Made by a program: the position numbers and the translations under genes | Notes under the pieces: model-generated | Seen by the model: the letters and a program-made list of their open reading frames with translations, nothing else | Told to the model about the DNA's origin: nothing | The model's database searches: none | NCBI GenBank assembly: GCA_014871385.1 | Contig: CM026428.1 | Span: 2,676,776 to 2,740,775, forward strand | DNA length: 64,000 bases | From: Ceratodon purpureus | Lineage: Eukaryota; Streptophyta; Bryopsida; Pseudoditrichales; Ditrichaceae | Reading direction: 5' to 3' | Shown here: positions 12,004 to 61,536 of the stretch, piece after piece | Position numbering within the stretch: position 1 is the stretch's first letter | Layout of the letters: each line of letters opens with the position of its first letter

Positions 12004-12006
<3 letters not shown>

Positions 12007-12063
<57 letters not shown>
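12007..12063. repeat. (AT)n microsatellite
   Basis: About 27 uninterrupted AT dinucleotides followed by impure AT-rich sequence. It interrupts the 3' region of the retroelement fragment. Confidence 0.95.
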
Positions 12064-12066
<3 letters not shown>

Positions 12067-13473: not shown

Positions 13474-13867
13474 CCTCTAAAAGAATATGCATACGTAGTT
13501 GGTGCAGTGGTTTACACATGTATTTATGCATTGAAGACTGAAAAATGATGTTCTCATGTTGAATTTTTTTGTGGAAGACAATGTCAGTACTATACTTGGT
13601 ATACATTTTTTTTCAAATTTTTTGGAGTAATTTAGAACAACTCTGCCACCGCTCGTATATGGTGCAAATATGTGTAAATGGGCATAAAAGACTCCATAGA
13701 ATACACATAGTGATTCCAATTTTATTTTTTTAAGTTTCACAATTTACCTCATCTTTGGGCCCTTCTTTTGCTCTTTGGTTGTTTCAAGTAATATGCATTG
13801 CAAGGTGCCTCAATTCATGTTACAATCGCAGCCGAGGCCATATTCCACCCTCAGGGCCCTTTAGGGG
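13474..13867. mobile_element. MITE with TTAA flanks, copy B
   Basis: A 394-bp close relative of 2446-2836. TTAA is present on both sides (13470-13473 and 13868-13871). The ends are CCTCTAAAAG and CCCTTTAGGGG. It is inserted in the decayed retroelement and so is younger than that insertion. Confidence 0.75.
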
Positions 13868-14137
13868 TTAAGTATAATACGTTTAGACAGTCATTAGTGT
13901 AGTAGCTCATTTGAGGGTGGAATTTAAGTGGTGTATATATATATTTTTTTGCGAGTTTGTTACGGTATTGTGTATTGATAACTCTTCATGTTTTATGTAT
14001 AGCTATCATTTTTGCACGTAGTATATTTAAATGTCCGTGGAGTCTTTTGGAGATATTAAGGCCTCCGGGATCGTAAATATCGTATCCAATTCTTTCTATT
14101 AGCCATTTGTATGGGCCGATTTCTTTGGGAGGTTTAA

Positions 14138-37373: not shown

Positions 37374-38745
37374 GATTTATTTCTTTCAATCAAATTATTT
37401 GTTTAGCTGATTGTGTACTTTCCACAGTAATTATACTCTTCTTGTAGACTGCTGAGCACTTGCTTAAAAGGCAATGTTTGATATCTAGGTTGTTACATTT
37501 ACCTAGGACCTGCAGATCACGGACATGGAAGCTGTAAGGCACATGAACTCTTTCTTAGAATGGGAACAGAATGTTCTGTGCCCGACGCAGTCACACATGT
37601 GCAAGGACAATGGGTTTGGAGTGGGTGAAGGACGTGCATAGCCATATCCAAGCAAGACTGGAGAAAGATGCGCTTCTGGCAAATTATGCGCTTCTATACA
37701 TGTATGCACAGTATACACTCTTTGCAAAGATGTCTTTACAGAGTATCGAGCGACCAGTATATATTGAGTACTGATGGCTCTGGAGGCATTCATCAGCATG
37801 CACCACATCTCTTGCGAGTTCTGGAATCCCGGAATTCTGCTCCTCACCATCTTGATTTGTTGCTGTTCTATATATTTTCTACTGGTGCTTCCCCCTATCA
37901 TACGGTAGTCGTGGTGTTATTGTGGCGTTGATGCTGGAGCTTGCTTCTATTCTTACTGCCATGGTTCGACTTTCTTTCACGGGCAAGCCTACTGGTACAG
38001 CAAAAATCGTGTCATATCCAGGTTCAGACTCTCAGGCCAAACTTTGCAAGTGCCAAGGAGAGGGACATGATCAGGATAACCTTGACTACAAGAGACTCAC
38101 GGGAGCAGATGCAGGCGAAGGCGATCGCGGAGAGTAAAACAGGCGCGGACACGAAAGAATTGTGGTCAATTGATCTTATCCCGCAACTGGCAACCTGGTT
38201 AACATCGTCTTTGCAATTCTGCCAACTTGGTGATTCTCGGAATCGCTGCTCTGTTCGAGTCACAATTGCATCGCTCACAGTACGATGCCAATCGCAAGTA
38301 GATAATCAGGGAAGCATGTGGGAAGCGTCAACTGGCGTCAACATGATAGTCTTAGTTCCAATTGATTCTAATTGGGTTACTGGGATGGACGTTCCTGCTC
38401 ATTTTGGACAATTAGGGTGGAGGCAGAGTTGCAAAATTCTTTTAGAGATAAAACTGATCTGTTTGGCATTGTTGTGTGCTTCAGCCTCACCAAAATTGAG
38501 TGCTTCGAAATTCCATGTGGATTCACAACCACATTATAGTAAATTCGCACATCCAGAGGCAGTGCACATCGAGGTGGGAAGCAGTAAAAGTCCCAAAAAC
38601 AACACTTCGCGAGTAAGTGAAACCGACACAGCTCTCACGTCAGGTCTTCAATTTTGACCACTGATGGCTACGAAAACCCACAGTATCAGAGCATCGCTTC
38701 CGGGTTCCGAGATTCACGGTTTCGACAATCGCCGCAGTCATGGTT
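37374..38745. other. Left-arm outer part, no recognised gene
   Basis: A 238-codon frame at 37941-38657 (repeated at 60542-61258 on the minus strand) is the longest, but its translation is unlike any family I know and an 84-codon frame overlaps it on the other strand. I do not call a gene. Confidence 0.45.
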
Positions 38746-38818
38746 GGGGATGTAGCTCAAATGGTAGAGCGCTCGATTCGCATTCGAGAGGCAGGGGGAT
38801 CGATGCCCCCCATCTCCA
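38746..38818 (+). tRNA. tRNA-Ala(CGC), left arm, first copy
   Basis: A complete 73-base cloverleaf without intron or encoded CCA. The acceptor GGGGATG pairs with CATCTCC and includes the G3:U70 wobble that is the alanine identity signal. The D-arm is GCTC/GAGC, and the anticodon stem CTCGA/TCGAG holds loop TTCGCAT, so the anticodon is CGC (codon GCG). The T-stem is GGGGG/CCCCC. The T-loop reads ATCGATG, with A in place of T at position 54, so the B box (GGATCGATGCC) departs from the general consensus. A TTTTT run lies about 58 bases downstream (38877). Confidence 0.95.
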
Positions 38819-39281
38819 CCTCCGATCATGAAACATCGATCATGTCGATCGGTGGAAACGATCAAAACTTTGTCCTCTTTTTCCGCTCCTGGAAGAGCGG
38901 TCGTCCAGGAGGGATCTCGTCCCGCTTTCCAGCCACCGTTCTTAGATGTTGGGTTCCCTCCCTGGTTGCAACTGTTCACCCTAGTTGTTCCGTCAGGTTC
39001 AACTGTCACGCTGTCAATTTTATAAGCACATCGCGTCCTCCAAAGTGTCCTCCCTGCCCAAAAAGATCCACCATACGGTTGCAATGCACACTGAGCCGTT
39101 GTGCTCGATACTAAGGTTTTGTGGCATAATCGAAAAGAGTCGGCGGCCATTTACCACCCAGGACCACTCTCTCTTTGCAATCGGTGGAAGCGTTCATTTC
39201 ATGGAAAAAATCGACTTGTGCGTCACCTTGATGGGCCGGCGAGGGATCATACATATGTCGCTCGACAAAAGAGATCCTGGC
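38819..39281. other. Spacer between convergent tRNA genes
   Basis: 463 bp of even composition separate the two tRNA-Ala genes, which point at each other. Frames through it are chance translations. Terminator candidates are TTTTT (plus strand, 38877-38881) and TTTT (minus strand, 39267-39270). Confidence 0.6.
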
Positions 39282-39354
39282 TGGAGATGGGGGGCATCGA
39301 TCCCCCTGCCTCTCGAATGCGAATCGAGCGCTCTACCATTTGAGCTACATCCCC
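39282..39354 (-). tRNA. tRNA-Ala(CGC), left arm, second copy
   Basis: Identical in sequence to the tRNA at 38746 but on the opposite strand: G3:U70, anticodon CGC, A at position 54. A TTTT terminator lies 12 bases past its 3' end (39267-39270). The flanks differ from those of the first copy, so the pair was not made by a simple local inversion. Confidence 0.95.
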
Positions 39355-40224
39355 GGGCACTGTCGATAGCAACTTGAATTCGCCGCAAGCACCGAATCTC
39401 GGAAAGACATCAACTCTTGCTCCATGAGCATCCCTGCGCGAATCCTCATACATACCTGGTTAGCTCATACTCTTGGAGGCCATCCTTAGGGTGGAAGTTC
39501 TGGTGCAGAGGTGGAGCAAAAGTAGATCCAAAGTGGTTTCATTGCCATGTGATACGAGAGAGAGAGCCGAGAATAGTGGAGAGTAGCCACTAAATTAGGG
39601 TCTAAAATGAGGAGGGATTATTTCCGCTTTGAATGGGTAGACACCTCGTTTAAAGGAAATTGAAGTTCCTTTGTGTAGTATTGGATTCGGATAATGTCAA
39701 ATTGGTTGTTGTTGAAGGTTTGAAGGAGGTGTGGTGTAAGCGTGTGTAGATTAGAGAGATGGGCTATGATTTGGAACAATACAATATCTTGCACTTATTG
39801 TGTGTTTAAATTATCATATTTACGTATGATCTTCTTGTGATACAAACTAGCAAATCTTTTTATTCACATATAACCTCACTTTTTGATACAATATCCTCCC
39901 CTATTTGTCCTCCCCTCAATCTTTCTCCCGCCTATAGCCTTCATAATTCAATGCACTTCTTTCAGATCTTAAAATTTAAATTTAATCTTTCTCATAAACA
40001 AAATCCTTCCTTTTTTTCTTCTTGACATCTCTCACCACAGTTCATACACAAAAACATCAAATCATCACTTCCACTAACATGCATTGCAACGCATATCCCT
40101 ATATACAACCCACCAAATAGACCATGAACAAGTAACATCCTTCTCCTCCCCCCTGACTTGACTCCTTCCCACCATACACTAATGCATAACAGACACAAAC
40201 ACACTAGATATAAATTGAAATATA
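39355..40224. other. Arm DNA without gene
   Basis: No feature beyond the tRNA upstream flank. A 70-codon minus frame at 39992-40204 is featureless. Confidence 0.5.
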
Positions 40225-41165
40225 GATCGGTTATCCAATTAGTGCCAACTATGCTTGCAATGACCGGAACCCCACAGCGAGGATCATGACTATTCTGACC
40301 AGATTATGGAAATTTGGTCAAAATGATCATGATTGTGGTCACTTCTTTTGATGATTGCAGGCATGGTTTGGACTAGTGTCTATACTTTGTAAAAATCAAT
40401 CAACCATTTAAGAAAATGCATTAGTAGATTGACAACTAACCACCAATCTAGCGCAATAATTATTTTAACACATTTTAAAGACATTAAAATGTCTGAAATA
40501 TGATTAAGACACTCTTCAATCTTAAAGAAACTTAATAGTCTATTCTATTATTTTGCTAGAATGGCCTGCCCATAAGACCAATACTACTACATACACTATG
40601 CATCCCAGTAAAAGTAATGAACCCACTCTCCACTACTGAAAAGTCTACGTCGTTTTTTGGACCTCAAAATTGTCAAAATCTTCATTGCACACAAAGTATC
40701 TTCTGATGCGTTGCATGTCTAGAAGGCGACAACCAAGGAGGGCAGGTACCTCCAAATCTCCAAAATCATCACAACACATAAGATATCTTCAGATGCGCTG
40801 CGTGCTTGGAAGGCGACAACCAAGGGGGAGGAAGATTTCTGATCACTGGAAGATCCGACAATTAATTACAAGTCAGCCCAAAAAAAGTGTTAAATTACTG
40901 ATTTGATTTTGAAGGTTTAGGATTTTTTCAGGTTTAGGATTTTTTCAGGTTTAGGATTTTTTCAGGTTCAAAACCTAAATCTTTCGTAAATATCACATTA
41001 GTATCACCCAAATATCAGCCAAGTATCAACCAAGTATCACTCAGGTATCATCCAAGTATCACATAATTATCATATAGAAATTACCAAATTATTTTACTAA
41101 AAGAAGATAATAGCTTGGCAAGAAGGCTCAGTCAATCGTGTATGCTTCTTGGTTGCCTTCACAAA
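40225..41165 (+). repeat. Old duplicate of the protease upstream region
   Basis: Collinear with about 43753-44735, the DNA just upstream of the intact protease gene. Shared landmarks include GACTATTCTGACCAGATTAT, CACATTTTAAAGACATTAAA, ACATAAGATATCTTCAGATG and the CAAGTATCAYC series. Divergence and small indels are obvious, so it is much older than the inverted duplication. Together with the exon at 42,020 it represents a partial tandem copy of the protease locus. Confidence 0.85.
40914..40964 (+). repeat. Tandem repeat, 17-bp unit, three copies
   Basis: GGTTTAGGATTTTTTCA occurs three times. The related site near 44552 has a single copy, so the expansion is specific to this duplicate. Confidence 0.9.
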
Positions 41166-42019
41166 ATATATGTCAATCAATAACATTCAATTTGAAGGAA
41201 ATTCTTTTAGTGCTTGATTCATTTGCTTGAATTGATCTTAAAATGAGAATTTTAAATTTTTTTAAAAAAAAAAAAAAAAAAAAAAACTTAAAAATTGATA
41301 TGATTTAAGAGACAGAAGTTAGAATTGATATGATTTAAGAGATAGAAGTTAGAATTTATATGATTTAAGAGACATAAGTCAGAATTGATCCGTGAACATT
41401 AGAATATGACTTAGTGGTAAAGACAGAGTGTTTTAGGACAAACATTATTTAAAATCATATTTGCCGTCACTTTCCGGTAAATGATTCTAATGATCATTTT
41501 AAGAACATTCCAAAGCAAGACATCACATTCGTGAAAGGTTGAAGACGGAGATTCATTTTTATAGTATTGATCCATTCTACAATGTCCAGGTCACTCAATT
41601 TGTTGCTCTGAATAGTGACACTACAACAACGCATCGCACTTCTGGAAGAAATAAATGTTGAAGATTCCATTTAGGAATATGATCCACTCAAGGACGTCAA
41701 GGATGTCATGGTCACCTCAATTTGTTGCTCTAAATAGTGACACCATTATAAGAACATTGCATTTATGGAAAAAAAGATGAAGATTCTATTTAAGAATTTG
41801 ATCTACTCTAGGACGTGAAGGTCGGTCAACCCGTCACATTGAATATTGACAACAAAACAAAGATTAAGGAGTTTTGTTCTTTAAAAGGTAGGTATAAAAA
41901 ATGAAGAAAATATCTAGATTTTGGGATTTAAACAAAGACCAATTTTCTTGTTCAATATTTATTAGTGAATATTATGTTATAGATATTTATTAAAACATCT
42001 GTTTTTATGACATTTGAAG
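41166..42019. other. Non-coding DNA replacing exons 1-2 of the protease copy
   Basis: Between the promoter-like block and the exon fragment there is no match to protease exons 1 or 2. An A-run (41263-41286) and a 30-bp tandem repeat lie here. Confidence 0.6.
41297..41386 (+). repeat. Tandem repeat, 30-bp unit, three copies
   Basis: Three units of GATATGATTTAAGAGACAGA plus AGTTAGAATT with two or three substitutions in the later copies, directly after the poly(A) run. Confidence 0.9.
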
Positions 42020-42240
42020 GCCTATGTGTGTGCACAAGTCCATCAAGGAGGTTCATATGAGTGTAATGGAGGCGTCAAGCAGTGTGACTACGATGTGGAC
42101 TATGCTGATGGTAGCACCACGATGGGGGTGTTGATGGAAGACACCGTCACACTGTTTCTCACAAACGGAAGTCGAAGTCAAACAAAGGCTATCATTAGGT
42201 AATATCTCGTAAAAATTTGTTATGGTAGTAATTATCAATA
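42020..42240 (+). pseudogene. Exon 3 fragment of a partial protease gene copy
   Basis: From about 42025 to 42202 the sequence matches exon 3 of the intact gene (46573-46749). By my count there are about 20 substitutions and no indel in roughly 178 bases (near 89% identity). The frame stays open (GGSYECNGGVKQCDYDVDYA... against GGAYECNGGVKQCDYDVEYA...). A GTAATATC donor-like sequence follows, and weak intron similarity continues to about 42240. The 5' end of exon 3, exons 1-2 and exons 4-8 are missing, so it cannot encode a protease. Confidence 0.9.
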
Positions 42241-49061: not shown

Positions 49062-49248
49062 GATATTACCTAATGATAGCCTTTGTTTGACTTCGACTTC
49101 CGTTTGTGAGAAACAGTGTGACGGTGTCTTCCATCAACACCCCCATCGTGGTGCTACCATCAGCATAGTCCACATCGTAGTCACACTGCTTGACGCCTCC
49201 ATTACACTCATATGAACCTCCTTGATGGACTTGTGCACACACATAGGC
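49062..49248 (-). pseudogene. Inverted exon 3 fragment of the protease copy
   Basis: The right-arm counterpart of 42020-42206, now antisense to the intact gene and 671 bases past its stop codon. Its strand is opposite to exon 3 at 46573-46749, with about 89% identity over roughly 178 bases by my count. Confidence 0.9.
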
Positions 49249-50102
49249 CTTCAAATGTCATAAAAACAGATGTTTTAATAAATATCTATAACATAATATT
49301 CACTAATAAATATTGAACAAGAAAATTGGTCTTTGTTTAAATCCCAAAATCTAGATATTTTCTTCATTTTTTATACCTACCTTTTAAAGAACAAAACTCC
49401 TTAATCTTTGTTTTGTTGTCAATATTCAATGTGACGGGTTGACCGACCTTCACGTCCTAGAGTAGATCAAATTCTTAAATAGAATCTTCATCTTTTTTTC
49501 CATAAATGCAATGTTCTTATAATGGTGTCACTATTTAGAGCAACAAATTGAGGTGACCATGACATCCTTGACGTCCTTGAGTGGATCATATTCCTAAATG
49601 GAATCTTCAACATTTATTTCTTCCAGAAGTGCGATGCGTTGTTGTAGTGTCACTATTCAGAGCAACAAATTGAGTGACCTGGACATTGTAGAATGGATCA
49701 ATACTATAAAAATGAATCTCCGTCTTCAACCTTTCACGAATGTGATGTCTTGCTTTGGAATGTTCTTAAAATGATCATTAGAATCATTTACCGGAAAGTG
49801 ACGGCAAATATGATTTTAAATAATGTTTGTCCTAAAACACTCTGTCTTTACCACTAAGTCATATTCTAATGTTCACGGATCAATTCTGACTTATGTCTCT
49901 TAAATCATATAAATTCTAACTTCTATCTCTTAAATCATATCAATTCTAACTTCTGTCTCTTAAATCATATCAATTTTTAAGTTTTTTTTTTTTTTTTTTT
50001 TTTTAAAAAAATTTAAAATTCTCATTTTAAGATCAATTCAAGCAAATGAATCAAGCACTAAAAGAATTTCCTTCAAATTGAATGTTATTGATTGACATAT
50101 AT

Positions 50103-51043
50103 TTTGTGAAGGCAACCAAGAAGCATACACGATTGACTGAGCCTTCTTGCCAAGCTATTATCTTCTTTTAGTAAAATAATTTGGTAATTTCTATATGATA
50201 ATTATGTGATACTTGGATGATACCTGAGTGATACTTGGTTGATACTTGGCTGATATTTGGGTGATACTAATGTGATATTTACGAAAGATTTAGGTTTTGA
50301 ACCTGAAAAAATCCTAAACCTGAAAAAATCCTAAACCTGAAAAAATCCTAAACCTTCAAAATCAAATCAGTAATTTAACACTTTTTTTGGGCTGACTTGT
50401 AATTAATTGTCGGATCTTCCAGTGATCAGAAATCTTCCTCCCCCTTGGTTGTCGCCTTCCAAGCACGCAGCGCATCTGAAGATATCTTATGTGTTGTGAT
50501 GATTTTGGAGATTTGGAGGTACCTGCCCTCCTTGGTTGTCGCCTTCTAGACATGCAACGCATCAGAAGATACTTTGTGTGCAATGAAGATTTTGACAATT
50601 TTGAGGTCCAAAAAACGACGTAGACTTTTCAGTAGTGGAGAGTGGGTTCATTACTTTTACTGGGATGCATAGTGTATGTAGTAGTATTGGTCTTATGGGC
50701 AGGCCATTCTAGCAAAATAATAGAATAGACTATTAAGTTTCTTTAAGATTGAAGAGTGTCTTAATCATATTTCAGACATTTTAATGTCTTTAAAATGTGT
50801 TAAAATAATTATTGCGCTAGATTGGTGGTTAGTTGTCAATCTACTAATGCATTTTCTTAAATGGTTGATTGATTTTTACAAAGTATAGACACTAGTCCAA
50901 ACCATGCCTGCAATCATCAAAAGAAGTGACCACAATCATGATCATTTTGACCAAATTTCCATAATCTGGTCAGAATAGTCATGATCCTCGCTGTGGGGTT
51001 CCGGTCATTGCAAGCATAGTTGGCACTAATTGGATAACCGATC
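50103..51043 (-). repeat. Right-arm copy of the old protease upstream duplicate
   Basis: Mirror image of 40225-41165, including the three-copy 17-bp repeat (about 50304-50354). The 30-bp repeat next to it is at about 49882-49971. Confidence 0.85.
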
Positions 51044-51913
51044 TATATTTCAATTTATATCTAGTGTGTTTGTGTCTGTTATGCATTAGTGTATGGTGGG
51101 AAGGAGTCAAGTCAGGGGGGAGGAGAAGGATGTTACTTGTTCATGGTCTATTTGGTGGGTTGTATATAGGGATATGCGTTGCAATGCATGTTAGTGGAAG
51201 TGATGATTTGATGTTTTTGTGTATGAACTGTGGTGAGAGATGTCAAGAAGAAAAAAAGGAAGGATTTTGTTTATGAGAAAGATTAAATTTAAATTTTAAG
51301 ATCTGAAAGAAGTGCATTGAATTATGAAGGCTATAGGCGGGAGAAAGATTGAGGGGAGGACAAATAGGGGAGGATATTGTATCAAAAAGTGAGGTTATAT
51401 GTGAATAAAAAGATTTGCTAGTTTGTATCACAAGAAGATCATACGTAAATATGATAATTTAAACACACAATAAGTGCAAGATATTGTATTGTTCCAAATC
51501 ATAGCCCATCTCTCTAATCTACACACGCTTACACCACACCTCCTTCAAACCTTCAACAACAACCAATTTGACATTATCCGAATCCAATACTACACAAAGG
51601 AACTTCAATTTCCTTTAAACGAGGTGTCTACCCATTCAAAGCGGAAATAATCCCTCCTCATTTTAGACCCTAATTTAGTGGCTACTCTCCACTATTCTCG
51701 GCTCTCTCTCTCGTATCACATGGCAATGAAACCACTTTGGATCTACTTTTGCTCCACCTCTGCACCAGAACTTCCACCCTAAGGATGGCCTCCAAGAGTA
51801 TGAGCTAACCAGGTATGTATGAGGATTCGCGCAGGGATGCTCATGGAGCAAGAGTTGATGTCTTTCCGAGATTCGGTGCTTGCGGCGAATTCAAGTTGCT
51901 ATCGACAGTGCCC

Positions 51914-51986
51914 GGGGATGTAGCTCAAATGGTAGAGCGCTCGATTCGCATTCGAGAGGCAGGGGGATCGATGCCCCCCATCTCCA
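51914..51986 (+). tRNA. tRNA-Ala(CGC), right arm, intact copy
   Basis: The counterpart of 39282-39354 and identical to it: G3:U70, anticodon CGC, T-loop ATCGATG. A TTTT terminator follows at about 51998-52001. Confidence 0.95.
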
Positions 51987-52496
51987 GCCAGGATCTCTTT
52001 TGTCGAGCGACATATGTATGATCCCTCGCCGGCCCATCAAGGTGACGCACAAGTCGATTTTTTCCATGAAATGAACGCTTCCACCGATTGCAAAGAGAGA
52101 GTGGTCCTGGGTGGTAAATGGCCGCCGACTCTTTTCGATTATGCCACAAAACCTTAGTATCGAGCACAACGGCTCAGTGTGCATTGCAACCGTATGGTGG
52201 ATCTTTTTGGGCAGGGAGGACACTTTGGAGGACGCGATGTGCTTATAAAATTGACAGCGTGACAGTTGAACCTGACGGAACAACTAGGGTGAACAGTTGC
52301 AACCAGGGAGGGAACCCAACATCTAAGAACGGTGGCTGGAAAGCGGGACGAGATCCCTCCTGGACGACCGCTCTTCCAGGAGCGGAAAAAGAGGACAAAG
52401 TTTTGATCGTTTCCACCGATCGACATGATCGATGTTTCATGATCGGAGGTGGAGATGGGGGGCATCGATCCCCCTGCCTCTCGAATGCGAATCGAG

Positions 52497-52514
52497 CGCT
52501 CTACCATTTGAGCT
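52497..52514 (-). repeat. LINE target site duplication, 3' side
   Basis: CGCTCTACCATTTGAGCT on the plus strand, identical to 60428-60445. It is the tRNA D-arm, nucleotides 9-26. Confidence 0.95.
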
Positions 52515-52520
52515 GAAAGA

Positions 52521-52532
52521 CCCGAATCCGGG
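52521..52532 (-). other. 3'-terminal hairpin of the LINE
   Basis: CCCG-AATC-CGGG on the plus strand, six bases from the 3' end of the element. LINEs without poly(A) often use a terminal stem-loop for recognition by their reverse transcriptase; that role is inferred here. Confidence 0.5.
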
Positions 52533-53031
52533 ATGAAATTAAGATGAACGGAAATTACAAACGAACGAATGACCAACCGGACATTCATCCAAAGCAACGA
52601 CCGAGGGCCCAACCCAACAAGGGGCACACAGGGCAGAGCCGCAAACATCCTGAGACATTTACAAGGGGGAATTCAACCGTACCAAAGTCCTGAACTACGA
52701 GTCAAGAACTATCACACTAGCACTAAGCCTAATGACAGACAACCCCTGAGGGCGCTGCCTAGCAAAGAACCTAAGAGATTAGCGTTTCAATCTGGTTCAC
52801 GAGGAAATCGAGATTGAGCCCCCGGAGACAACTGGGGAACCGGGGGCGGCATTTGTGAGCCTGGAAAACCAGTTCCATCCTGAGAATGGAGCTGCTGAAT
52901 GTGTGTCAAAGTAACGGGAGAGGAGCTAATCCTGAGCTCCGTTGGAGAATTGTTCTGCGAAAGTGCCCTTTGGGGACGCGGCCCGAAAGGTAGTTGGCGC
53001 TGAGTGTCAATACTGACGGGGTGAGAGGAGT

Positions 53032-56000
53032 TCAGTGGGAACTCCGGAGTCCAGGAGTCCCATGGGTCAATGGACAGGGGGTAGAGGGCCGACCTCTACC
53101 CGAGGGATCTCCAAGCCAAAAATCTGCCTGCCATTGCAGGTCTTCTTGCGTTTGTAGAGAATCGGGTAAGTCCCAGCCCTGAGCTTGGTCTTCGTCTTCG
53201 GGTACCTGGGGAGCGATGCCTGCTTCTAAGTCCGCCATAATGCGTTGCAGCATTACGTCTGCTACGGCGTCGTGATTAATTTGCGAGGGTCCTGGGCCTT
53301 GCGGGTCCTGGCTAACGAGGTTTGTTATGGGCGTGGCCGCCTGTGGGGGAGGATCCGCAGTAGTGTCATCTGTCGGAGGAGTGGGTTGCGTAAGGTTGGC
53401 CCTAAAACGCGTGTACCTGTTGGCTAGATCTCTTGTGAGAAATTCCCTATGCGGGACAAGCTGCCAGTGTATACCGTTTCTCCTTGTGCAGAAGATGTCG
53501 GCGTGGCACCAGGTATCTAAAAATTTCTGTTCCCGTTCTTGTTGGTTTCTCGATTTCGGTCCTGTTCTTCGTTTTGAGAGCCCTTGCCAAGCTCCCATCC
53601 CCGCTTGGACTGTCGTCTGCCACGCCCGGAATAAAGCAAAACCGATATGAAATTGCCCATCCCTTAAGTCATAAGCACACTTTTCGCACCATAAGAACCA
53701 GATTATACACATCCTGAGTATATTCCAGGGTGTTTCATCTGTATGTTCTTGTGCCGGTGGATGCTCACCGGGACTGGGTGGTGGTCTAGTGTCTGGAGGG
53801 ATTTCTGTCGGAGGTTGTAAACCTGACAAAGCTTCCCACCAGTTCGTGATTCCTGGTCTCAGTCCTGATAGAGTCCTGATTCTTCGTAATTTGTCCCAGA
53901 CTCCTTGAACCGAGGGACATGTAAAGAATGTATGCTCGGGAGTCTCCCATTCTGGGGGGTTGCATAGGTTGCATACTCCCTCATTTCCTGGACCTAATCG
54001 CATTCTCCAGTGGGCCAAGGGTAAGCCTCCTTGGCATGTCAGCCATACCATTGTTGAAATTTTCCTTGGCACCCACTTATGCCACAGATTCTGGTAGAAA
54101 ATCTTACAATGATAAGCATTGTATCCCTTGTAGAACATGAGTTGGGTAAAGGGAGGTGTAACGCCCTGTTTAACATTGATGATCTTATAGCCTCGTTTAG
54201 TCGTGTAATCGAAAAAATGGCCTGACTTCAGATGTCCTATAGCTTTCCAGGTCCACTCCTTGAGGTCCAGAGTCAGGTCTTTTATTCGCCCATGTTTGAC
54301 GACGTAAACTTCCCAATGGGGGAGAACATGAGGTACATATTGGGGATTGAAGCACTCCACCTTCCCCTCTGGATTTTTAAGTACGGTACGAGCTCTCGTG
54401 TAATTCCACGAAGGCAGACGTACTGCGTAAGGACCAGAGACTCTAATAAGTTTCTCCGTTTGAGCCTGTCTGCGATAAACAACCGCATCCATCTGCCCTT
54501 CCAAATACACTTTTTGTACATGAAAGAACTCCTCCGGGAGGTTTCTCTCTGGCTCATCAAACGTTAACCAATCTCCTTTCTTCCGGATGTAGTCTGTGTT
54601 GGGATTCCACAGAATTCCTGAGTGAAGCTCTGGGAGAATGGTCTCTATATTTTGCGATCGGGTAATCTGTCTGATGTCCTGATGGTGTAGCCACTGATGT
54701 CTCGGGTAATCCCACAGGTGCCCAACTGTTGAGATCCCTTTCTCTTCCCATCTGCGGAACACTCCAGGGCGGTCTTCCCCAAACATAGCGCCTTGGGGGT
54801 TAGTGATACTGGGATTGAAGAAGAGGGCTTGGCGCAGTGTTTCCTCCCGATTAGATGGTATATTCTTCTTGGTTCCTGATCGGACCTCCAACCATGCCCC
54901 CCATATGCCGTGCCATAAAGGGCTACCCTGATTTGTTACTTTTTTCCCTTTAAGTAGCCATTCAGCGTTAGCAGGCCAATCACCCTCGTGGCGAAGGCGG
55001 AGCTGGCTGACGCGGTGCTGGAGAAGAACTTTCCACGGTTCGGGGCCGGGTTCCATCCCTCTCGTTATCATCTTCGCGAGTAATGCAGAAGCTTGAGCGT
55101 ATGGGTCAAAAACTTTGATACCTCCCAGTGTAGTTGGTAAAACTGCTGATGCCCATGCCACTCTCGCCCGAGGTTTGCCTTCAACTTTCCCGCTCCAGAT
55201 GAAATTGCGAACCATTGTGCGAGCTTTGGCCAGCACGCTACGGGATAAATCCGCGCAGCTGGCTATGTACCAGATGGAGGCTAACACCACCTGGTTCGTC
55301 ACTAGAATGCGTGCTGCCATTGATAATGGCTTGTTGACCCAAAGGGCCAGCTTGCCTCTGATTTGAGATAATACCTTGGCATTTTTTTCTTTTTGGCCCA
55401 TGTTGAATCCAAGAGGGAATCCAAGACTAGTCACTGAGCTCCCCGCCGGGATCCACCTAAGTCCCTTATCCTGGCCCCAAGTCCATAACTGGGGGTTAAG
55501 TGAGGCCCAAATGGCCGCACTTTTATCCCAATTGACATTGGACCCTGTCCCTCCACAGAAGAGTTTCAGCACTGAGTCTGCTCGGTCTAGATTTTCCGGC
55601 GTTCCCTTCAAATATAGGTTGGAGTCGTCGGCAAAGAGTGCTTCCCTGAGGATGTCTCCGTTTGGTAGGACTAAACCTTCAACCCCGTTATCAGGGTCAT
55701 TCAACATATGGGCGAGAGTGTCGGCTATGAAGAGGTAGAGGTAGGGTGCCATTGGGCACCCTTGCCTCACCCCACGCTCCATCTCAAATTCTTCTCCGAC
55801 CTCTCCGTTAACAAGAATTGATGTTGTTGCTCCCTCGTAGAAGGTAGCCACCCACCGAATCCAGACCTCCGAGAATCCCATTTTTTCCATGGCTGCCTTC
55901 AAAAAAGTCCAGTTGACTTGATCATAGGCTTTTTCAAAGTCGATCATGAGTACTACTAGGTCTTGGTTCGATGATTTCGCCCATTCCATAGCCTCATAGG

Positions 56001-57798
56001 CTAGAAATACATTGTCCAGGATCTGTCTATTCCTTACAAAGGCTGCCTGAGAAGGGTGAATCCACTCGGGGAGGAGTGGTTGCATTCTATTCGCCATCGC
56101 CTTGGACATCAGTTTATAAGTACTGGTCAAAACCGATATTGGTCGGTAGTTGCGAATGTTAGTCTTTGGGCCCCCTTTGGGGATCAAAGATTTTAGACCT
56201 GTGTTGAGTCCCTTGTGTAAAGTCCCAAGCCTCAAAGCCTCCTCTAGTTGCGCTTGAATGTCTGTCCCTATGTCCTCCCAAAGGGTTTGTAATACCTCAG
56301 TGGGAATGCCGTCTAATCCTGAGGCTTTGTGTAATGGCAGGTCTTTTGCGGCTAGCTCTAGCTCCAGTTGCGTAAACGGCTTCAAAAGTTCCTCATTGTG
56401 AGCCTCAGTTACCACCCGTGGTATGCTTTTCAAACACTGAGTTCTCGCTCTGATATTAATCTCTGTTAAAGCATCCATCTTATATAGGGATTTGTAGTAA
56501 GTTTGCACATACTCCTTAATGGCTTCTGGTGTACGATGTGATCGTCCACCCTCCATCAGTTCTTGGATTCGGGTACGGGGCCTGATGGCCTTGTGGAGTT
56601 GAAAAAATTCTCTTGAGCATTTATCCCCCATCTTAGCCCAAGTGGCTCCTGTCTGGTTCTTTTTTCGTTCTATCTTCTCCATCCTAACCTCTTCCAGAAT
56701 TTCCTGAGCATGGTTTAAATCTTCCCACGCCTGTAGATCGTTCCAGTCAAGTTGGAGCCGAGCTTCTGCACTTCTCACATCCTGAAATTGCGCTTGGTAT
56801 ACCCTGCGCCAAGCCTTCTTCTCCATCTTCGAAATTTTTGTGTTCTCGTTTCTCATCGCTTGCAAGGCTTTCACCACTTGCTCTCCTTTCGGAAGAGCTC
56901 TGTTCTGGGCTACAGTGTCTTTCCAAGCCGTAATATGAGCCAGTTTGGACTCCTCCTTGTGTAGAAGTGCCGTATTGAAATGCGGTGGTCCTGGGCGGGT
57001 CCGAATCTGTTTAAGGTAAACCTGAAGAAAGATGCCCGCGTGGTCAGACAGGTGAGCCATAAACTGCCAAATCCCATGGCGTCCACCGCATTCTTGGATT
57101 TCCTGGTTTACGTAAAACCGATCCAAACGAGACCATTTGGGGACTGGTCGCTGCTTGGACCAGGTCGCTCTCTTGATTCCTATTCTTCTATACTCATCGG
57201 CGTAAAAAACATCATTGACTCCCATATGGAGTGCGAATGTATTCCAAGATGCTTGTTCGCGGTCCCCCATTGCCTTCTCCAAATAATTCTCACTTCTATC
57301 TTCTGAGAACTCTGTCATATTAAAATCTCCGGAGACGATCCAGTGGGCTTCTGGGAACTGGTACTGGCTTAATCTGTTCCAAAGCTGAGCCCGCTTGGCT
57401 GTATGGTTATGAGCGTAAATATTAAGAATTCCTATTCTCCGGTCATCCGCTTGAAAGATGACAAATTGAACTCGGCCTTCTATGAGAACGGCACTGTCTA
57501 CTATAAAGGGAGCTATCTGTTTTCCAATTATTATCCCTGTACCCGCTTTCATCCTCCCTCCGTGAGCTGAGTAAATCGCACTGTTCCATAAACTGGTCCC
57601 CCCCTTGAAATCCAGCTGGTGTGTTTGCTTCATGCAGTCTTCGTAGTGAAAATGGTGCTCTTGCAGTAGAATGACATGTGGTTGTGGATTCGCCCGTGCG
57701 AGAAAATCCTTCAGCTCCTTTCTCTTTCGTACGCCATAAACACCCTGCCCTAAGCTACGAATGTTTTGGGACGCTATATTCAGTTGGTGTAAATTCAT
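53032..57798 (-). CDS. LINE ORF2: endonuclease and reverse transcriptase, 1588 residues
   Basis: The APE-type endonuclease occupies residues about 1-260: SQNIRSLG near 11, LLQEHHF near 45, GDFNM near 158, WSRLDRFYV near 220 and LSDHAG near 251. The reverse transcriptase follows: NYRPISVLTSTYKLMSKAMA, then MIDFEKAYD near 617, RGVRQGCPMAPYLYLF and FADD at about 722-725, so the catalytic aspartates are present. Near 1250-1300 is a zf-RVT knuckle (PRKISTMVWL...CNLCNPPEWETPEHTFFTC). No RNase H domain is evident. The tail, about 1400-1588, is proline-rich and unassigned. The ATG overlaps the ORF1 stop in ATGA (57795-57798), suggesting stop-restart translation. Confidence 0.95.
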   Translation of the reverse strand: MNLHQLNIASQNIRSLGQGVYGVRKRKELKDFLARANPQPHVILLQEHHFHYEDCMKQTHQLDFKGGTSLWNSAIYSAHGGRMKAGTGIIIGKQIAPFIVDSAVLIEGRVQFVIFQADDRRIGILNIYAHNHTAKRAQLWNRLSQYQFPEAHWIVSGDFNMTEFSEDRSENYLEKAMGDREQASWNTFALHMGVNDVFYADEYRRIGIKRATWSKQRPVPKWSRLDRFYVNQEIQECGGRHGIWQFMAHLSDHAGIFLQVYLKQIRTRPGPPHFNTALLHKEESKLAHITAWKDTVAQNRALPKGEQVVKALQAMRNENTKISKMEKKAWRRVYQAQFQDVRSAEARLQLDWNDLQAWEDLNHAQEILEEVRMEKIERKKNQTGATWAKMGDKCSREFFQLHKAIRPRTRIQELMEGGRSHRTPEAIKEYVQTYYKSLYKMDALTEINIRARTQCLKSIPRVVTEAHNEELLKPFTQLELELAAKDLPLHKASGLDGIPTEVLQTLWEDIGTDIQAQLEEALRLGTLHKGLNTGLKSLIPKGGPKTNIRNYRPISVLTSTYKLMSKAMANRMQPLLPEWIHPSQAAFVRNRQILDNVFLAYEAMEWAKSSNQDLVVLMIDFEKAYDQVNWTFLKAAMEKMGFSEVWIRWVATFYEGATTSILVNGEVGEEFEMERGVRQGCPMAPYLYLFIADTLAHMLNDPDNGVEGLVLPNGDILREALFADDSNLYLKGTPENLDRADSVLKLFCGGTGSNVNWDKSAAIWASLNPQLWTWGQDKGLRWIPAGSSVTSLGFPLGFNMGQKEKNAKVLSQIRGKLALWVNKPLSMAARILVTNQVVLASIWYIASCADLSRSVLAKARTMVRNFIWSGKVEGKPRARVAWASAVLPTTLGGIKVFDPYAQASALLAKMITRGMEPGPEPWKVLLQHRVSQLRLRHEGDWPANAEWLLKGKKVTNQGSPLWHGIWGAWLEVRSGTKKNIPSNREETLRQALFFNPSITNPQGAMFGEDRPGVFRRWEEKGISTVGHLWDYPRHQWLHHQDIRQITRSQNIETILPELHSGILWNPNTDYIRKKGDWLTFDEPERNLPEEFFHVQKVYLEGQMDAVVYRRQAQTEKLIRVSGPYAVRLPSWNYTRARTVLKNPEGKVECFNPQYVPHVLPHWEVYVVKHGRIKDLTLDLKEWTWKAIGHLKSGHFFDYTTKRGYKIINVKQGVTPPFTQLMFYKGYNAYHCKIFYQNLWHKWVPRKISTMVWLTCQGGLPLAHWRMRLGPGNEGVCNLCNPPEWETPEHTFFTCPSVQGVWDKLRRIRTLSGLRPGITNWWEALSGLQPPTEIPPDTRPPPSPGEHPPAQEHTDETPWNILRMCIIWFLWCEKCAYDLRDGQFHIGFALFRAWQTTVQAGMGAWQGLSKRRTGPKSRNQQEREQKFLDTWCHADIFCTRRNGIHWQLVPHREFLTRDLANRYTRFRANLTQPTPPTDDTTADPPPQAATPITNLVSQDPQGPGPSQINHDAVADVMLQRIMADLEAGIAPQVPEDEDQAQGWDLPDSLQTQEDLQWQADFWLGDPSGRGRPSTPCPLTHGTPGLRSSH

Positions 57799-60221
57799 AT
57801 TAGATTCTCTGTAGTGGCTTCGGAGAACTGGCCCTGAGCTCGGTTCTTCTTAGAAACTGGGGGATGGGGAGACCTATCCTTTGAGAAAATTGCCTCACCC
57901 ACCACCTGTCGAAGAGTTGCTTCCGTGGTATCTGACAGCCAAAAGAGCCCTCCCATTTGAGAACAGGCTGTCAAATTCTGAGTGATAGAGTCATCTAGCT
58001 TCGTCCAAGTGAATGCGTCCGGTTTTGTCAAAGGTATATCCTTTGGCTGGACTGGGATAAAGGCTAAGCAGACGCAGTGGTTATGCTCTGAGTCAAGCTT
58101 GACCCATTGGTACAGCCATATGGCACTGGCCCAATGTTTCAGGGGGTTAACACGATTATTGGTATTAATAATGATGGTTCTGAGAGCTAACGAAGCCTCA
58201 TTAGTCAGATGCTGTAGTGTTTCCTTATGTTCCCAATCCGTGCGACCCTCTAGGACTTGTACATTCTTGTAGGCAGCTGCCGTGTTTGCAGTAGCGCCCT
58301 TCTCGCCCTTTTTCTGTAAAAACCAGAAGGTGTTGGAGCCTTCTGAGTTATGCTTCTTAACTGATGTTGTTAAGATTGGAAATACCCGACAGGAATTATG
58401 CTTAAGAAGCATGGTAGTCGTGATGTTCGCCCCTGCCCAGAAGTTATGGGGGAGATCCGATGTTAGATACCCCCTCCTCGGTAGAGGTTCTGATTCTTTG
58501 ACAACTATTTCTTCCTCTGGTGGCGCCCCTCTGTCCCAGAAGAATTTCCCTTCTGCTCTCCAGATAAATTCAAACTTCTCTTCATTCTGCTTCTCCTGAG
58601 GGGAACGAGTGTCCATAGATTTAAGCTGGTTTAAAGTAACTCCTGCATGAGTTTGCTTCGGAGGTTTGTCCTTAATCCTCGCTGCCTTCTTGGGGCGAGT
58701 GGGGGTAGGATCCGATGGATGATCAAAGGATTGAGTCTGTTTCTCTGTAGCGTGTCCTTCGTCGGAAGGCTCAGGAGTTGTATGATCCTGTTCCTCTTCT
58801 GTTGGCTTCATAGGAGTAACTTCCTGCCCTTCCTCGATTGGAACCGACATAGAGTGGTCGTCCCCATAAATGGGGACAAGCTCTGAACCAATCTGTACTA
58901 TTCCAATCTCTGGAGGTTCAGACTGGGCGTCCTGAATCTGGTCTCTCCTGAGGACAATCTCCGGTGTTTCTTTGATGACTTCTGTACTGCTCGGAGAAAG
59001 GTTTGCTTCTGTGGATTGAGAGGGTGATACTATGTCTATCTGTGGGGCCAACGGAGGTTGCTGGGCCTTCTTCTGATAGCGCATCGACGGAGTCGCTGAC
59101 GGCTTAGGGCCTGGCGTCTGAGGTGCTGTTGTCTTCTTAGCTTCTTTGGCCGGAGGTGATGTTTGCTTCGGCCTACGATCAGGGCTCCTTCCCCTGGTTG
59201 GGGGGCTCTCCTGAGCGTGGGGGCGCGAAACTTGCTGATGGGTTACCGTCGGAGACGCTTGAGGTCTGGTCCCTTGAGGTCTAGGTCCTCTTAGAGAACG
59301 GGAGGGCTGTCGCGGTCTGGAAGCGTTCCTCCGTTGCTTCTCCTGTGCTCCTCCCTTGCCTCGAGTCTGGGTGCAGCTCTTAACCAGGTGACCTAATGCC
59401 TTGCATCGAAGGCATTGGTCAGGTCGGCCCTGGTAGATCACCTTATGTTCCATGAAAGTCCCTCGGTCTGTTGGGATACGAATGCTATTGGGTAGATTAT
59501 CCACATCTCTCACGAGGATGCGGATTTTAGGTCCAGAGGTCTTGCCTTTGAACGTGTCTGACGCATCTATGGATAGTATCCGACCTAATCTGTTACCTAA
59601 TAGGGTTAGGCAGTCTTCGTTTCTGAGCCATCCTGGAAGACCGAGGAAGTGGGCCCAAACGGGGTATTGTGTAGAGCTGTAAGTCTCCTCATTTTCCGAA
59701 GAAAATTCGGGACTCCAAGTCGAGAATGTCACCTCCTTTCCTTCGTAGAAAAAAGTGTTACTGAGGGTGTGGTCCGCTCCATCAACCGAAGAGAAAAGAA
59801 CTTCAAAGAAGTTATTCCCTACCTGTGTAATCTCCTCACATGTGGCATGTAAGTTCTCCTTCGCCCAAATGGCCAACACCTTATAACCCGGACTCGCAGT
59901 TGGGAAGTGACCCAACACGGTCCGCTCAGCTACTGCCTCCCGGTGTGCGTTTAAGATCTGAAATTCCTCCTCCGAGAAAGTGTAAGTAAGAGTTCCTTCA
60001 TCGCTAATCGGCTGTGCTGCCTCTCGCTGCTTACTCGGTGAGTAAGGCGAACGAGGCGCTGCTGCCCGGTCAAGACTGTGTGGGCTCGTTGCGTCGCGTT
60101 TCCCCCGCTCCGATGGCGTATCCTGAGCCTCAGCCTCTCTCATGCACTCGTCTTGTGTAGGAATTTCTACACACTCGGAGTGATGAGGGTTAGCCAAGTT
60201 TCCCCCCTCAGAAGCCGCCAT
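57795..60221 (-). CDS. LINE ORF1: nucleic-acid-binding protein, about 808 residues
   Basis: The frame is open from 60278, but MAASEGGN at 60221 is the likelier start because the preceding 19 residues look like translated leader. Counting from M at 60278, residues about 100-285 form a DUF4283-like RNA-binding region (WAHFLGLPGWLRNEDCLTLL, GKTSGPKIRILVRDVDNLP), followed by a CCHC knuckle, CLRCKALGHLVKSC, near 288-301. A long Pro/Ser/Arg-rich linker follows to about 580. A further globular-looking domain of about 230 residues, from about 595 to the end (ANITTTMLLKHNSC, LRTIIINTNNRVNPLKHWAS), has no counterpart I know in plant L1 ORF1. The stop overlaps the ORF2 start. Confidence 0.9.
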   Translation of the reverse strand: MAASEGGNLANPHHSECVEIPTQDECMREAEAQDTPSERGKRDATSPHSLDRAAAPRSPYSPSKQREAAQPISDEGTLTYTFSEEEFQILNAHREAVAERTVLGHFPTASPGYKVLAIWAKENLHATCEEITQVGNNFFEVLFSSVDGADHTLSNTFFYEGKEVTFSTWSPEFSSENEETYSSTQYPVWAHFLGLPGWLRNEDCLTLLGNRLGRILSIDASDTFKGKTSGPKIRILVRDVDNLPNSIRIPTDRGTFMEHKVIYQGRPDQCLRCKALGHLVKSCTQTRGKGGAQEKQRRNASRPRQPSRSLRGPRPQGTRPQASPTVTHQQVSRPHAQESPPTRGRSPDRRPKQTSPPAKEAKKTTAPQTPGPKPSATPSMRYQKKAQQPPLAPQIDIVSPSQSTEANLSPSSTEVIKETPEIVLRRDQIQDAQSEPPEIGIVQIGSELVPIYGDDHSMSVPIEEGQEVTPMKPTEEEQDHTTPEPSDEGHATEKQTQSFDHPSDPTPTRPKKAARIKDKPPKQTHAGVTLNQLKSMDTRSPQEKQNEEKFEFIWRAEGKFFWDRGAPPEEEIVVKESEPLPRRGYLTSDLPHNFWAGANITTTMLLKHNSCRVFPILTTSVKKHNSEGSNTFWFLQKKGEKGATANTAAAYKNVQVLEGRTDWEHKETLQHLTNEASLALRTIIINTNNRVNPLKHWASAIWLYQWVKLDSEHNHCVCLAFIPVQPKDIPLTKPDAFTWTKLDDSITQNLTACSQMGGLFWLSDTTEATLRQVVGEAIFSKDRSPHPPVSKKNRAQGQFSEATTENLI

Positions 60222-60398
60222 ACTCGCTGGAAAACCTAATAAAAAATGACCCAACAATCCACACGAAAACCTCCACAAACTAAGTGCGAAGATCTACTCC
60301 TAACAACGATCGAAGGTCGAGCAAAACACGATTAGAAGAGCGTTAGGGTTAGCGCCGCCGCTCCGCCGCTCCGCTCCGCCATCGCTCCTCTCCTCTCC

Positions 60399-60424
60399 CG
60401 CTCTACCAACTGAGCTAGGACGGC
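60399..60424 (-). other. 5' half of a second tRNA at the LINE 5' end
   Basis: On the minus strand this reads GCCGTCCT then AGCTCAGTTGGTAGAGCG: a seven-base acceptor strand, TA, and a perfect D-arm with A box, exactly 26 bases. It differs from the host tRNA-Ala in the acceptor and at two D-loop positions, so it is not part of the target duplication. The isotype cannot be told from this half. Three bases (ACT) separate it from the duplication. Confidence 0.85.
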
Positions 60425-60427
60425 AGT

Positions 60428-60445
60428 CGCTCTACCATTTGAGCT
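60428..60445 (-). repeat. LINE target site duplication, 5' side
   Basis: Identical to 52497-52514 over 18 bases; beyond it the flanks differ. Confidence 0.95.
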
Positions 60446-60453
60446 ACATCCCC

Positions 60454-61536
60454 AACCATGACTGCGGCGATTGTCGAAACCGTGAATCTCGGAACCCGGA
60501 AGCGATGCTCTGATACTGTGGGTTTTCGTAGCCATCAGTGGTCAAAATTGAAGACCTGACGTGAGAGCTGTGTCGGTTTCACTTACTCGCGAAGTGTTGT
60601 TTTTGGGACTTTTACTGCTTCCCACCTCGATGTGCACTGCCTCTGGATGTGCGAATTTACTATAATGTGGTTGTGAATCCACATGGAATTTCGAAGCACT
60701 CAATTTTGGTGAGGCTGAAGCACACAACAATGCCAAACAGATCAGTTTTATCTCTAAAAGAATTTTGCAACTCTGCCTCCACCCTAATTGTCCAAAATGA
60801 GCAGGAACGTCCATCCCAGTAACCCAATTAGAATCAATTGGAACTAAGACTATCATGTTGACGCCAGTTGACGCTTCCCACATGCTTCCCTGATTATCTA
60901 CTTGCGATTGGCATCGTACTGTGAGCGATGCAATTGTGACTCGAACAGAGCAGCGATTCCGAGAATCACCAAGTTGGCAGAATTGCAAAGACGATGTTAA
61001 CCAGGTTGCCAGTTGCGGGATAAGATCAATTGACCACAATTCTTTCGTGTCCGCGCCTGTTTTACTCTCCGCGATCGCCTTCGCCTGCATCTGCTCCCGT
61101 GAGTCTCTTGTAGTCAAGGTTATCCTGATCATGTCCCTCTCCTTGGCACTTGCAAAGTTTGGCCTGAGAGTCTGAACCTGGATATGACACGATTTTTGCT
61201 GTACCAGTAGGCTTGCCCGTGAAAGAAAGTCGAACCATGGCAGTAAGAATAGAAGCAAGCTCCAGCATCAACGCCACAATAACACCACGACTACCGTATG
61301 ATAGGGGGAAGCACCAGTAGAAAATATATAGAACAGCAACAAATCAAGATGGTGAGGAGCAGAATTCCGGGATTCCAGAACTCGCAAGAGATGTGGTGCA
61401 TGCTGATGAATGCCTCCAGAGCCATCAGTACTCAATATATACTGGTCGCTCGATACTCTGTAAAGACATCTTTGCAAAGAGTGTATACTGTGCATACATG
61501 TATAGAAGCGCATAATCTGATTGAAAGAAATAAATC
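60454..61536. other. Right-arm outer part, no recognised gene
   Basis: Inverted copy of the left-arm outer part, including the 238-codon frame (60542-61258, minus) that I do not accept as a gene. The deletion junction is at about 61512-61518. Confidence 0.5.

Follow-up and report, generated by a model that had tools for sequence, protein, structure and literature searches.

Other LINEs, and Dada DNA transposons, are already known to insert inside tRNA genes. NeSL-1_TV is a LINE whose host is Trichomonas. It is specific to tRNA-Pro genes, as the planarian elements LIN15_SM and LIN25_SM are to tRNA-Arg and tRNA-Glu genes, respectively (PMC4640811), and all three are related to the NeSL clade, which has a restriction-like endonuclease. 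Target specificity has also been described for Dewa (tRNA-Leu spacer), Mutsu (5S), and Keno (U2) (PMC3706591), and both Keno and the Tx1 clade are described as having an APE-type endonuclease (PMC4640811). TRE5 and TRE3 of Dictyostelium and NLTR-A and NLTR-B are tRNA-linked LINEs whose insertions lie beyond the gene, at a distance of 2 to about 150 bp, and the TREs have an APE endonuclease and poly(A) ends (PMC5006619, PMC5911963). Dada elements insert inside the gene, at nucleotides (nt) 8 to 13 (the A box) or around the anticodon (PMC3706591, PMC8869645). In the open-access papers searched, we found no report of a plant L1 inside tRNA genes.

The 64,000-nucleotide stretch of Ceratodon purpureus DNA analyzed here (the window) contains a full-length L1-type LINE of 7,913 bp on the minus strand (positions 52515 to 60427; 5′ end at 60427, 3′ end at 52515), which very probably belongs to a group of such elements that insert inside tRNA genes, presumably by a nick at the D-arm and target-primed reverse transcription. 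The element splits a tRNA-Ala gene, also on the minus strand, into a 5′ part (nt 1 to 26; positions 60428 to 60453) and a 3′ part (nt 9 to 73; positions 52450 to 52514), the latter giving an RF00005 match that begins at model position 9. An 18-bp duplication, AGCTCAAATGGTAGAGCG, corresponding to nt 9 to 26 of tRNA-Ala(CGC), was present on both sides of the element (5′ copy at 60428 to 60445, 3′ copy at 52497 to 52514), as an earlier note on this DNA had stated. That note had given 52450 to 60453 for the LINE, which is the interrupted tRNA gene together with the element, and had placed the insertion after the D-arm. This holds for the 5′ junction, which follows nt 26, and fails for the 3′ junction, which precedes nt 9, so that the whole D-arm is duplicated.

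Three intact tRNA-Ala genes were found in the window, as had been noted (38746 to 38818, plus strand; 39282 to 39354, minus strand; 51914 to 51986, plus strand), and the first of these is the unbroken target itself. Comparison of the locus with itself showed that 37683 to 42206, within which this gene lies, and 49062 to 61516, the arm bearing the insertion, are inverted copies interrupted solely by the element. On one side of the element the arms matched at 100% for 3,453 bp and on its other side for 1,089 bp, with the 18-bp duplication common to both stretches, and the break points of the element are therefore exact against an identical copy with an empty site, which bears out the splitting of the tRNA-Ala gene by an L1-type LINE. 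Identity across approximately 4.5 kb would also be expected if the empty site were an assembly artifact, e.g., an inverted repeat produced by joining two haplotypes. We consider this very unlikely; one arm would even then be a true empty allele, and the family-wide result reported below is independent of the empty site in the window.

ORF1 (808 amino acids; 57795 to 60221, minus strand) contained a DUF4283 domain (PF14111; 59517 to 59834) and, by eye, a CCHC knuckle. ORF2 (53032 to 57798, minus strand; first Met at 57798) overlapped the ORF1 stop codon as ATGA and encoded, all on the minus strand, an N-terminal APE-type endonuclease (57040 to 57768; PF03372, matching the LINE-1 endonuclease structures 8sp5 and 1vyb), a reverse transcriptase (RT; 55507 to 56169; PF00078, E = 4.1e-30), and a zf-RVT domain (53896 to 54102; PF13966). 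No match to an RNase H family, and none to a transposase family at an E value of 0.01, was obtained in the two ORFs. In these ORF1 and ORF2 domains, and in giving no RNase H family match, the element resembles plant L1-type LINEs, from which it differs in its insertion into a tRNA gene and in its 3′ end, a predicted hairpin (CCCG-GATT-CGGG) followed by TCTTTC in place of a poly(A) tail (52515 to 52532, minus strand). With NeSL-1_TV, LIN15_SM, and LIN25_SM it shares specificity for tRNA genes, but an APE domain was found by domain match where the NeSL clade has a restriction-like endonuclease. Target specificity together with an APE-type endonuclease (stated for Tx1 and Keno) is shared with Dewa, Mutsu, Keno, and the Tx1 clade, although the targets differ. 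The tie to tRNA genes is shared with TRE5, TRE3, and NLTR-A and -B, and the APE endonuclease with the TREs, which insert outside the gene at a preferred distance and end in poly(A), whereas the junctions here lie inside the gene and poly(A) is absent. Runs of T were not depleted in the element (10 observed versus 8.8 expected), the first T6 occurring at element nt 182; RNA polymerase III (Pol III) alone is thus not expected to make the full RNA, and its role as sole polymerase was unsupported.

We assessed the flanks of other copies in the same genome, the test put forward in the earlier note. Among the 29 ORF2 relatives scored, drawn from 1,455 first-look candidates in the assembly, 25 ran into the 3′ portion of a tRNA gene, another 2 into a degenerate tRNA-like sequence (by eye), and the remaining 2 into neither; after two duplicated pairs were collapsed, 25 of 27 were tRNA or tRNA-like. 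A search with the 3′ untranslated region, in which the query contained the 18-nt duplication, yielded 40 places including the window copy, of which 30 were fetched; a T-arm was present at the expected distance in 21 (2 of these with a degenerate D-arm), a D-arm without a T-arm in 5, and no tRNA in the 3′ flank in 4. Fourteen tRNA isotypes served as targets. Most lineages had their junctions at tRNA nt 8/9 or close to it. The Leu and Met lineages used the anticodon arm instead, and RF00005 gave no match for their junctions (L041 to L044), which rest on reading by eye; isotype names and tRNA numbering throughout are likewise our reading by eye, and 63 of the 18,830 tRNA gene candidates in the genome were scored. 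Tandem insertions were also seen.

These results support the site-specific family that had been proposed, with 27 of the 29 ORF2 relatives at tRNA or tRNA-like sequence, but it is wider than envisaged, being spread over many isotypes and two tRNA regions rather than confined to tRNA-Ala. Dada elements use the same two regions and differ in their DDE transposase, which the window element lacks among its domain matches, in their shorter duplications, and in not being retrotransposons. Among 16 other L1s of the genome taken as a control sample, 12 had poly(A), and none of these 12 joined a tRNA gene; 2 others (L100 and L103) had no recognizable end and were placed in neither group, and another 2 (L093 and L096) turned out to be tRNA flanked. 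The probability is vanishingly small that this is an ordinary L1 with near-random insertion whose tRNA flanks arose from ascertainment or from duplication of tRNA arrays together with a few insertions. Duplicated sites common to some copies, and the 18-nt duplication in the 3′ query, point in that direction, but copies found through the ORF2 protein, for which the flank was not used as query, lie in many isotypes with different flanks, and none of the 12 sampled poly(A) L1s joined a tRNA gene.

Target duplications in tRNA genes measured 15 to 18 bp. They were present in 16 of 27 examined pairs of ends, and in further truncated copies; none was found in the other 11 pairs, for some of which the fetched stretch may stop short of the 5′ end. 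Targeting is a strong preference, and a preference only, because 2 of the 29 ORF2 relatives were not in tRNA genes. Copies in non-tRNA DNA, named beforehand as evidence against a targeted family, thus exist as a small minority, and an AGCTCA-like start is common to those whose duplication was measured, at AGCTCATAGAAATAGCT, at AGCTCAAGAGTTGGATA and, with one mismatch, at AGCACAGTGAGG. It therefore seems that the element reads DNA sequence.

Every tRNA gene is transcribed by Pol III. Guidance by its transcription machinery (TFIIIB/TFIIIC), of the kind seen for Dictyostelium TRE5 or yeast Ty3, with the exact site secondary, would accordingly suit this choice of targets and has a parallel in the interaction of TFIIIB proteins with TRE5-A ORF1 (PMC5911963). 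We nevertheless regard it as quite unlikely; junctions were at a fixed nucleotide within the gene, rather than some way outside it, and the off-target copies L010 and L015 occupied AGCTCA sites that lacked a T-arm at the expected distance. In the favored mechanism, the APE endonuclease would nick the bottom strand at TGAGCT^ (AGCTC-type targets), and the RT would recognize the 3′ hairpin of its own RNA and prime at the nick. A second nick would be made at the opposite end of the D-arm, so that the whole D-arm would be duplicated and both ends would remain targetable, which fits the tandem insertions.

The tRNA-targeted copies were without poly(A) and had a short predicted 3′ hairpin; the terminal hairpin was predicted in 46 of 50 entries, and L015, L040, L045, and L047 folded otherwise. 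Restoration of the lost tRNA acceptor strand by the 3′ end of the element was rejected as a rule, the sum over 22 junctions being 101 versus a permuted mean of 105 (1,923 of 2,000 permuted-partner sets reached the observed sum). Individual pairing was 7 of 7 for L096 and 6 of 7 for L018, L020, and L052.

In an RT tree built with 8 of the 12 poly(A) L1s and no Tx1 reference set, tRNA-flanked copies were clustered (4 changes versus a shuffled mean of 15.6; none of 500 shuffles as low). The tRNA label requires at least 3 changes, so a single origin of targeting was not demonstrated, and Lys and Glu targets recurred at separate places. One protein in the tree, P0028, is TX1 only by the depositor's name and was on a long branch.

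The second tRNA head that the earlier note had claimed for the start of the element proved real. It comprises 29 nt (60399 to 60427, minus strand), ACT followed by nt 1 to 26 of tRNA-Lys. By exact-match counts, the 26-nt head had 61 copies in the genome and 11 with ACT, and the other 10 places of the ACT-bearing 29-mer (tRNA-Lys nt −3 to 26) were all in one tRNA-Lys cluster (C8) on the same contig. Judged from these matches, the head is probably a transduced part of an earlier host tRNA-Lys gene. Of 15 5′ ends, 7 matched a target site over at least 13 nt immediately past the 5′ junction (for each of the 7, 0 of 300 shuffles did so), and the other 8 had no significant target-like piece; L003, L005, L006, L008, L066 (truncated), and L122 were omitted from this test. 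A start at tRNA nt −3 was seen in the window copy only. L123 is located in tRNA-Asp, which is followed by a D-arm piece of Glu type and, as read by eye, by a further piece.

LINE RTs are able to switch templates. The tRNA-Lys head could in this way have arisen by a switch onto a tRNA-Lys precursor and not by read-through from an earlier insertion, and a parent copy, looked for in the tRNA-Lys cluster, was not found there. We hold such a switch to be unlikely, although it deserves some weight; the piece ends at nt 26, where an insertion in tRNA-Lys would join the element, relatives are located near the nt 26 position in the cluster with the same ACT leader, and target-site pieces occupy the same place in other copies. 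Under read-through, the RNA template may begin in the tRNA gene that hosted the element before, and the next copy would then bear the 5′ fragment of that host; the fragment in the window copy would be tRNA-Lys nt −3 to 26, giving a host history of Ala now and Lys of C8 before. We tentatively extend this to the group, with somewhat less than even confidence: insertions could capture the host tRNA start, since the template is proposed to begin in that gene, the 5′ end would be a heritable log of ancestral host genes, the borrowed tRNA transcription start would serve as promoter, and, along the tree, the choice of target would change from one isotype to another and from D-arm to anticodon arm or back. 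Such transduced heads would make parent-daughter relations of LINE copies readable from sequence.

If the proposed targeting is true, an APE-type plant L1 can turn site specific and extend to numerous tRNA isotypes, in parallel to the LINEs with restriction-like endonucleases and to Dada, which chose the same two tRNA regions. As poly(A), apparently nontargeted L1s and poly(A)-less targeted L1s occur in one genome, the changes in the endonuclease and in 3′ recognition behind the targeting are directly comparable.

No relatives were found among viral contigs. A search of genome contigs returned 21 loci; a single "Trichormus" metagenome-assembled genome (MAG) accounted for 18, with L1s 25 to 40% identical. 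An RNA-family scan of these 18 (L142, L148, and L149, from other records, were outside it) gave no gathering score for any family, and many contigs may end before the element does; one of the MAG loci, L136, has a tRNA-like stretch by eye. A first protein search gave metagenome proteins (P0001 to P0010, 36 to 50% identical); in a second, metagenome proteins were again closest, and named plant proteins followed from about 30%.

The window copy, an L1-type LINE, was complete at 7,913 bp and lay on the minus strand (5' end at 60427, 3' end at 52515). Its 808-aa ORF1 (57795-60221) contained DUF4283 and a CCHC knuckle, the latter read by eye, and ORF2 (53032-57798) contained APE endonuclease, RT, and zf-RVT domains; the ORF1 stop and the ORF2 start overlapped in ATGA, and the ORF2 endonuclease matched LINE-1 structures. 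The 3' terminus read CCCG-GATT-CGGG-TCTTTC, without poly(A). The segment 49062-61516 had an inverted, 100% identical copy at 37683-42206 in which the element was the sole interruption, i.e., an empty site. The break points relative to this copy bore out the proposal of the earlier note that the 18-bp duplication is tRNA nucleotides (nt) 9 to 26 (numbering and isotypes by our own reading), and the three uninterrupted tRNA-Ala genes that it reported were present in the window. The repeat arms flanked a 6.9-kb spacer and carried two convergent tRNA-Ala genes each, one of these four being split by the element. The window contained two further repeats, one inverted (11552-13103 and 24327-25635; ~1.3 kb, 75 to 83% identity) and one direct (2441-2841 and 13469-13872; ~400 bp, 94% identity).

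The occurrence of related copies was assessed in the genome to which the window belongs (362 Mb in 151 contigs; C1 to C5 and C7 to C13 of 16.5 to 29.0 Mb, C6 of 110.5 Mb). Among 1,455 first-look candidates, 29 ORF2 relatives (45 to 100% identity, window copy included) were scored and their 3' junctions read. Of these, 25 abutted the 3' portion of a tRNA gene, two (L016 and L049) joined sequence that was by eye degenerate tRNA-like, and two (L010 and L056) had no tRNA at the 3' junction. Tabulating the flanks of other copies, as the earlier note had suggested, hence placed 27 of 29 at tRNA or tRNA-like sequence; effective numbers are smaller because several loci share duplicated sites, and with two apparent site-duplicate pairs (on C9 and C8) collapsed the count was 25 of 27. 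Isotypes were Ala, Arg, Asn, Asp, Cys, Glu, Gly, Leu, Lys, elongator Met, Pro, and Thr, with Phe added by 3'-end matches and Ile by the control sample. The 3'-end query (last 286 nt plus the 18-nt duplication) was biased toward copies at the D-arm site, since it held the duplication, a bias of which the ORF2 table is free; it found 40 places, of which 30, including the window copy, were fetched. A T-arm lay 41 to 48 nt past the junction in 21 (among them L013 and L016, though their D-arm was degenerate), a D-arm without a T-arm was present in 5 (L014, L022, L030, L035, and L037; the flanks of L022, L035, and L037 continued into another element copy), and 4 (L010, L012, L015, and L024) had no tRNA in the 3' flank; the 5' flank of L024 held a tRNA-Phe head.

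The Rfam tRNA model RF00005, scanned over junctions other than L010 to L037 and L126, scored above gathering from model position 9 or 10 at 11 junctions (window, L039, L040, L045, L047, L050, L051, L053, L054, L055, and L057) and matched over its whole length at L048 and L052 (Pro), L093 (Ile), and L096 (Cys), where the element end replaces the 5' side. No match was obtained at the Leu and Met junctions L041 to L044 or at L049, all of which were assigned by reading.

Target duplications were present in 16 of 27 examined pairs of ends: Ala (window, 18 bp), Lys (18, 17, 17, and 16 bp; the two of 17 bp, L004 and L005, being duplicated sites), Thr (16 bp), Asp (16 and 16 bp), Glu (17 and 17 bp), Pro (15 bp), Leu (18, 18, and 18 bp), Met (17 bp), and off-target L010 (17 bp). 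None was found in the other 11 (L059/L040, with only a partial match within the tRNA-Asn head; L003/L017, whose 5' side was unlike the 3' side; L064/L048, L067/L056, L069/L028, L070/L016, L119/L045, L120/L047, L125/L051, L127/L093, and L128/L096). When one mismatch was permitted at 21 additional loci, duplications of 17 bp were added at L011 (Arg), L019 (Ala), L021 (Phe), and L025 (Ala), and others at L030, L032, L035, and L036, with nothing of note at L013, L014, L016, L031, and L038. Leu copies duplicated GCGCCAG... (nt 24 to 41 in our numbering) and the Met copy AGGTCTCAT..., both spanning the anticodon arm; the other lineages had their junction at nt 8/9 or close to it. Duplication of the complete D-arm preserves the target on either side of the element. 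Tandem insertions in one D-arm were seen at L021/L022, L034/L037, and L122, the last with ~120 nt of element 3' end followed by a long copy in the same tRNA-Glu D-arm.

Three copies at non-tRNA sites duplicated AGCTCATAGAAATAGCT (L010, whose matched part shares 98% identity with the window ORF2), AGCTCAAGAGTTGGATA (L015), and AGCACAGTGAGG (L012, with one mismatch). These sites begin like the tRNA target, so that the first nick is apparently read from the DNA sequence; it would fall on the bottom strand at TGAGCT^. A terminal hairpin was predicted in 46 of 50 rows (L015, L040, L045, and L047 folded otherwise), with stems varying among CCCG/CGGG, CCTG/CAGG, TCCC/GGGA, GCC/GGC, and others, and may be the site recognized by the RT.

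As a control, grape protein P0028 was used as the query to sample other L1s, and the 16 rows absent from the ORF2 table whose open frames reached 1,236 aa or more were taken. Twelve had a poly(A) end and a junction free of tRNA, two (L093 and L096) lay in tRNA genes without poly(A), and two (L100 and L103) had no recognizable end. Seven more such rows, already in the ORF2 table, were tRNA flanked (one degenerate), giving, among 23 such L1s obtained with this unrelated query, 9 tRNA-flanked copies, 12 with poly(A), and 2 without a recognizable end. The L1-like frames of L100 and L103 (1,734 and 1,729 aa) were followed by a common 345-bp stretch (91.6% identity) with neither poly(A) nor tRNA. 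L093 (C9, Ile) and L096 (C3, Cys) formed a separate tRNA-flanked pair; the L096 end GGGGGTA pairs 7/7 with the tRNA-Cys acceptor strand, a pairing rejected as a general rule. U1 and U6 snRNA genes (L043, 133-291; L097, 664-769) lay less than ~0.5 kb from two L1 ends, probably by chance.

Eight poly(A) copies were included in an RT tree of 50 rows; seven fell in one group, and L107 branched basally on the other side. Four changes were needed to explain the tRNA-flank label (mean over shuffles, 15.6; none of 500 as low), and the starred branches required at least three; tRNA-flanked copies are clustered, though at least three changes do not establish a single origin. Unlabelled metagenome proteins and kin of L100/L103 stood among them. 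Three Leu copies grouped together, as did Pro with Gly, Asp with Glu, and the AGCTC-type copies, window included; against a simple target rule, Lys targets appeared in three places and Glu in two. L085 entered without a target label and was later read as tRNA-Arg. Eighteen contigs of the cyanobacterial MAG CAKZGI01 ('Trichormus'; L129 to L141 and L143 to L147) had L1-like ORFs, presumably plant contamination; none of the 18 scanned had a tRNA at gathering score, and L136 showed a tRNA-like stretch by eye.

Published accounts describe LINEs of the RLE type within genes for tRNA-Pro, tRNA-Arg, and tRNA-Glu (PMC4640811), the element Dewa in the spacer of tRNA-Leu (PMC3706591), and, among transposons, Dada, which targets tRNA nt 8 to 13 or the anticodon (PMC8869645). 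The window family, likewise inside tRNA genes, differs from the RLE-type LINEs in being APE type, and from TREs and NLTRs, which sit beside tRNA genes (PMC5006619 and PMC5911963), in lying within them. The open-access papers searched gave no account of a plant L1 of the APE type that inserts within tRNA genes.

The 5' end of the window copy started with ACT plus tRNA-Lys nt 1 to 26. This 26-nt head occurred 61 times in the genome (backward-read control, 0); preceded by ACT, it occurred only 11 times, in the window copy and 10 times in C8:2,951,230-3,009,329. Three relatives inserted in tRNA-Lys genes of that cluster (L004/L026, L005/L027, and L068/L018) likewise had the ACT leader, their heads lacking exact nt 25 and 26 and hence falling outside the 61. 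The template RNA of the window copy therefore most likely started in the C8 cluster, 3 nt upstream of one of its tRNA-Lys genes; a parent copy was not found. T-runs in the element were as frequent as expected. A further target-type piece of 13 to 18 nt started 7 of 15 tested 5' ends (0 of 300 shuffles each) and was absent from 8; in the 14 ends long enough, no stretch 150 nt further in matched over more than 7 nt. Where such a piece shares the isotype of the current host, as in some copies, it could come from the insertion event itself. The tRNA-Lys heads formed tandem arrays at C5:18191534-18227771 (856-bp spacing) and C8:2951230-3009329 (1,725-bp spacing); several elements have inserted into the C8 array.
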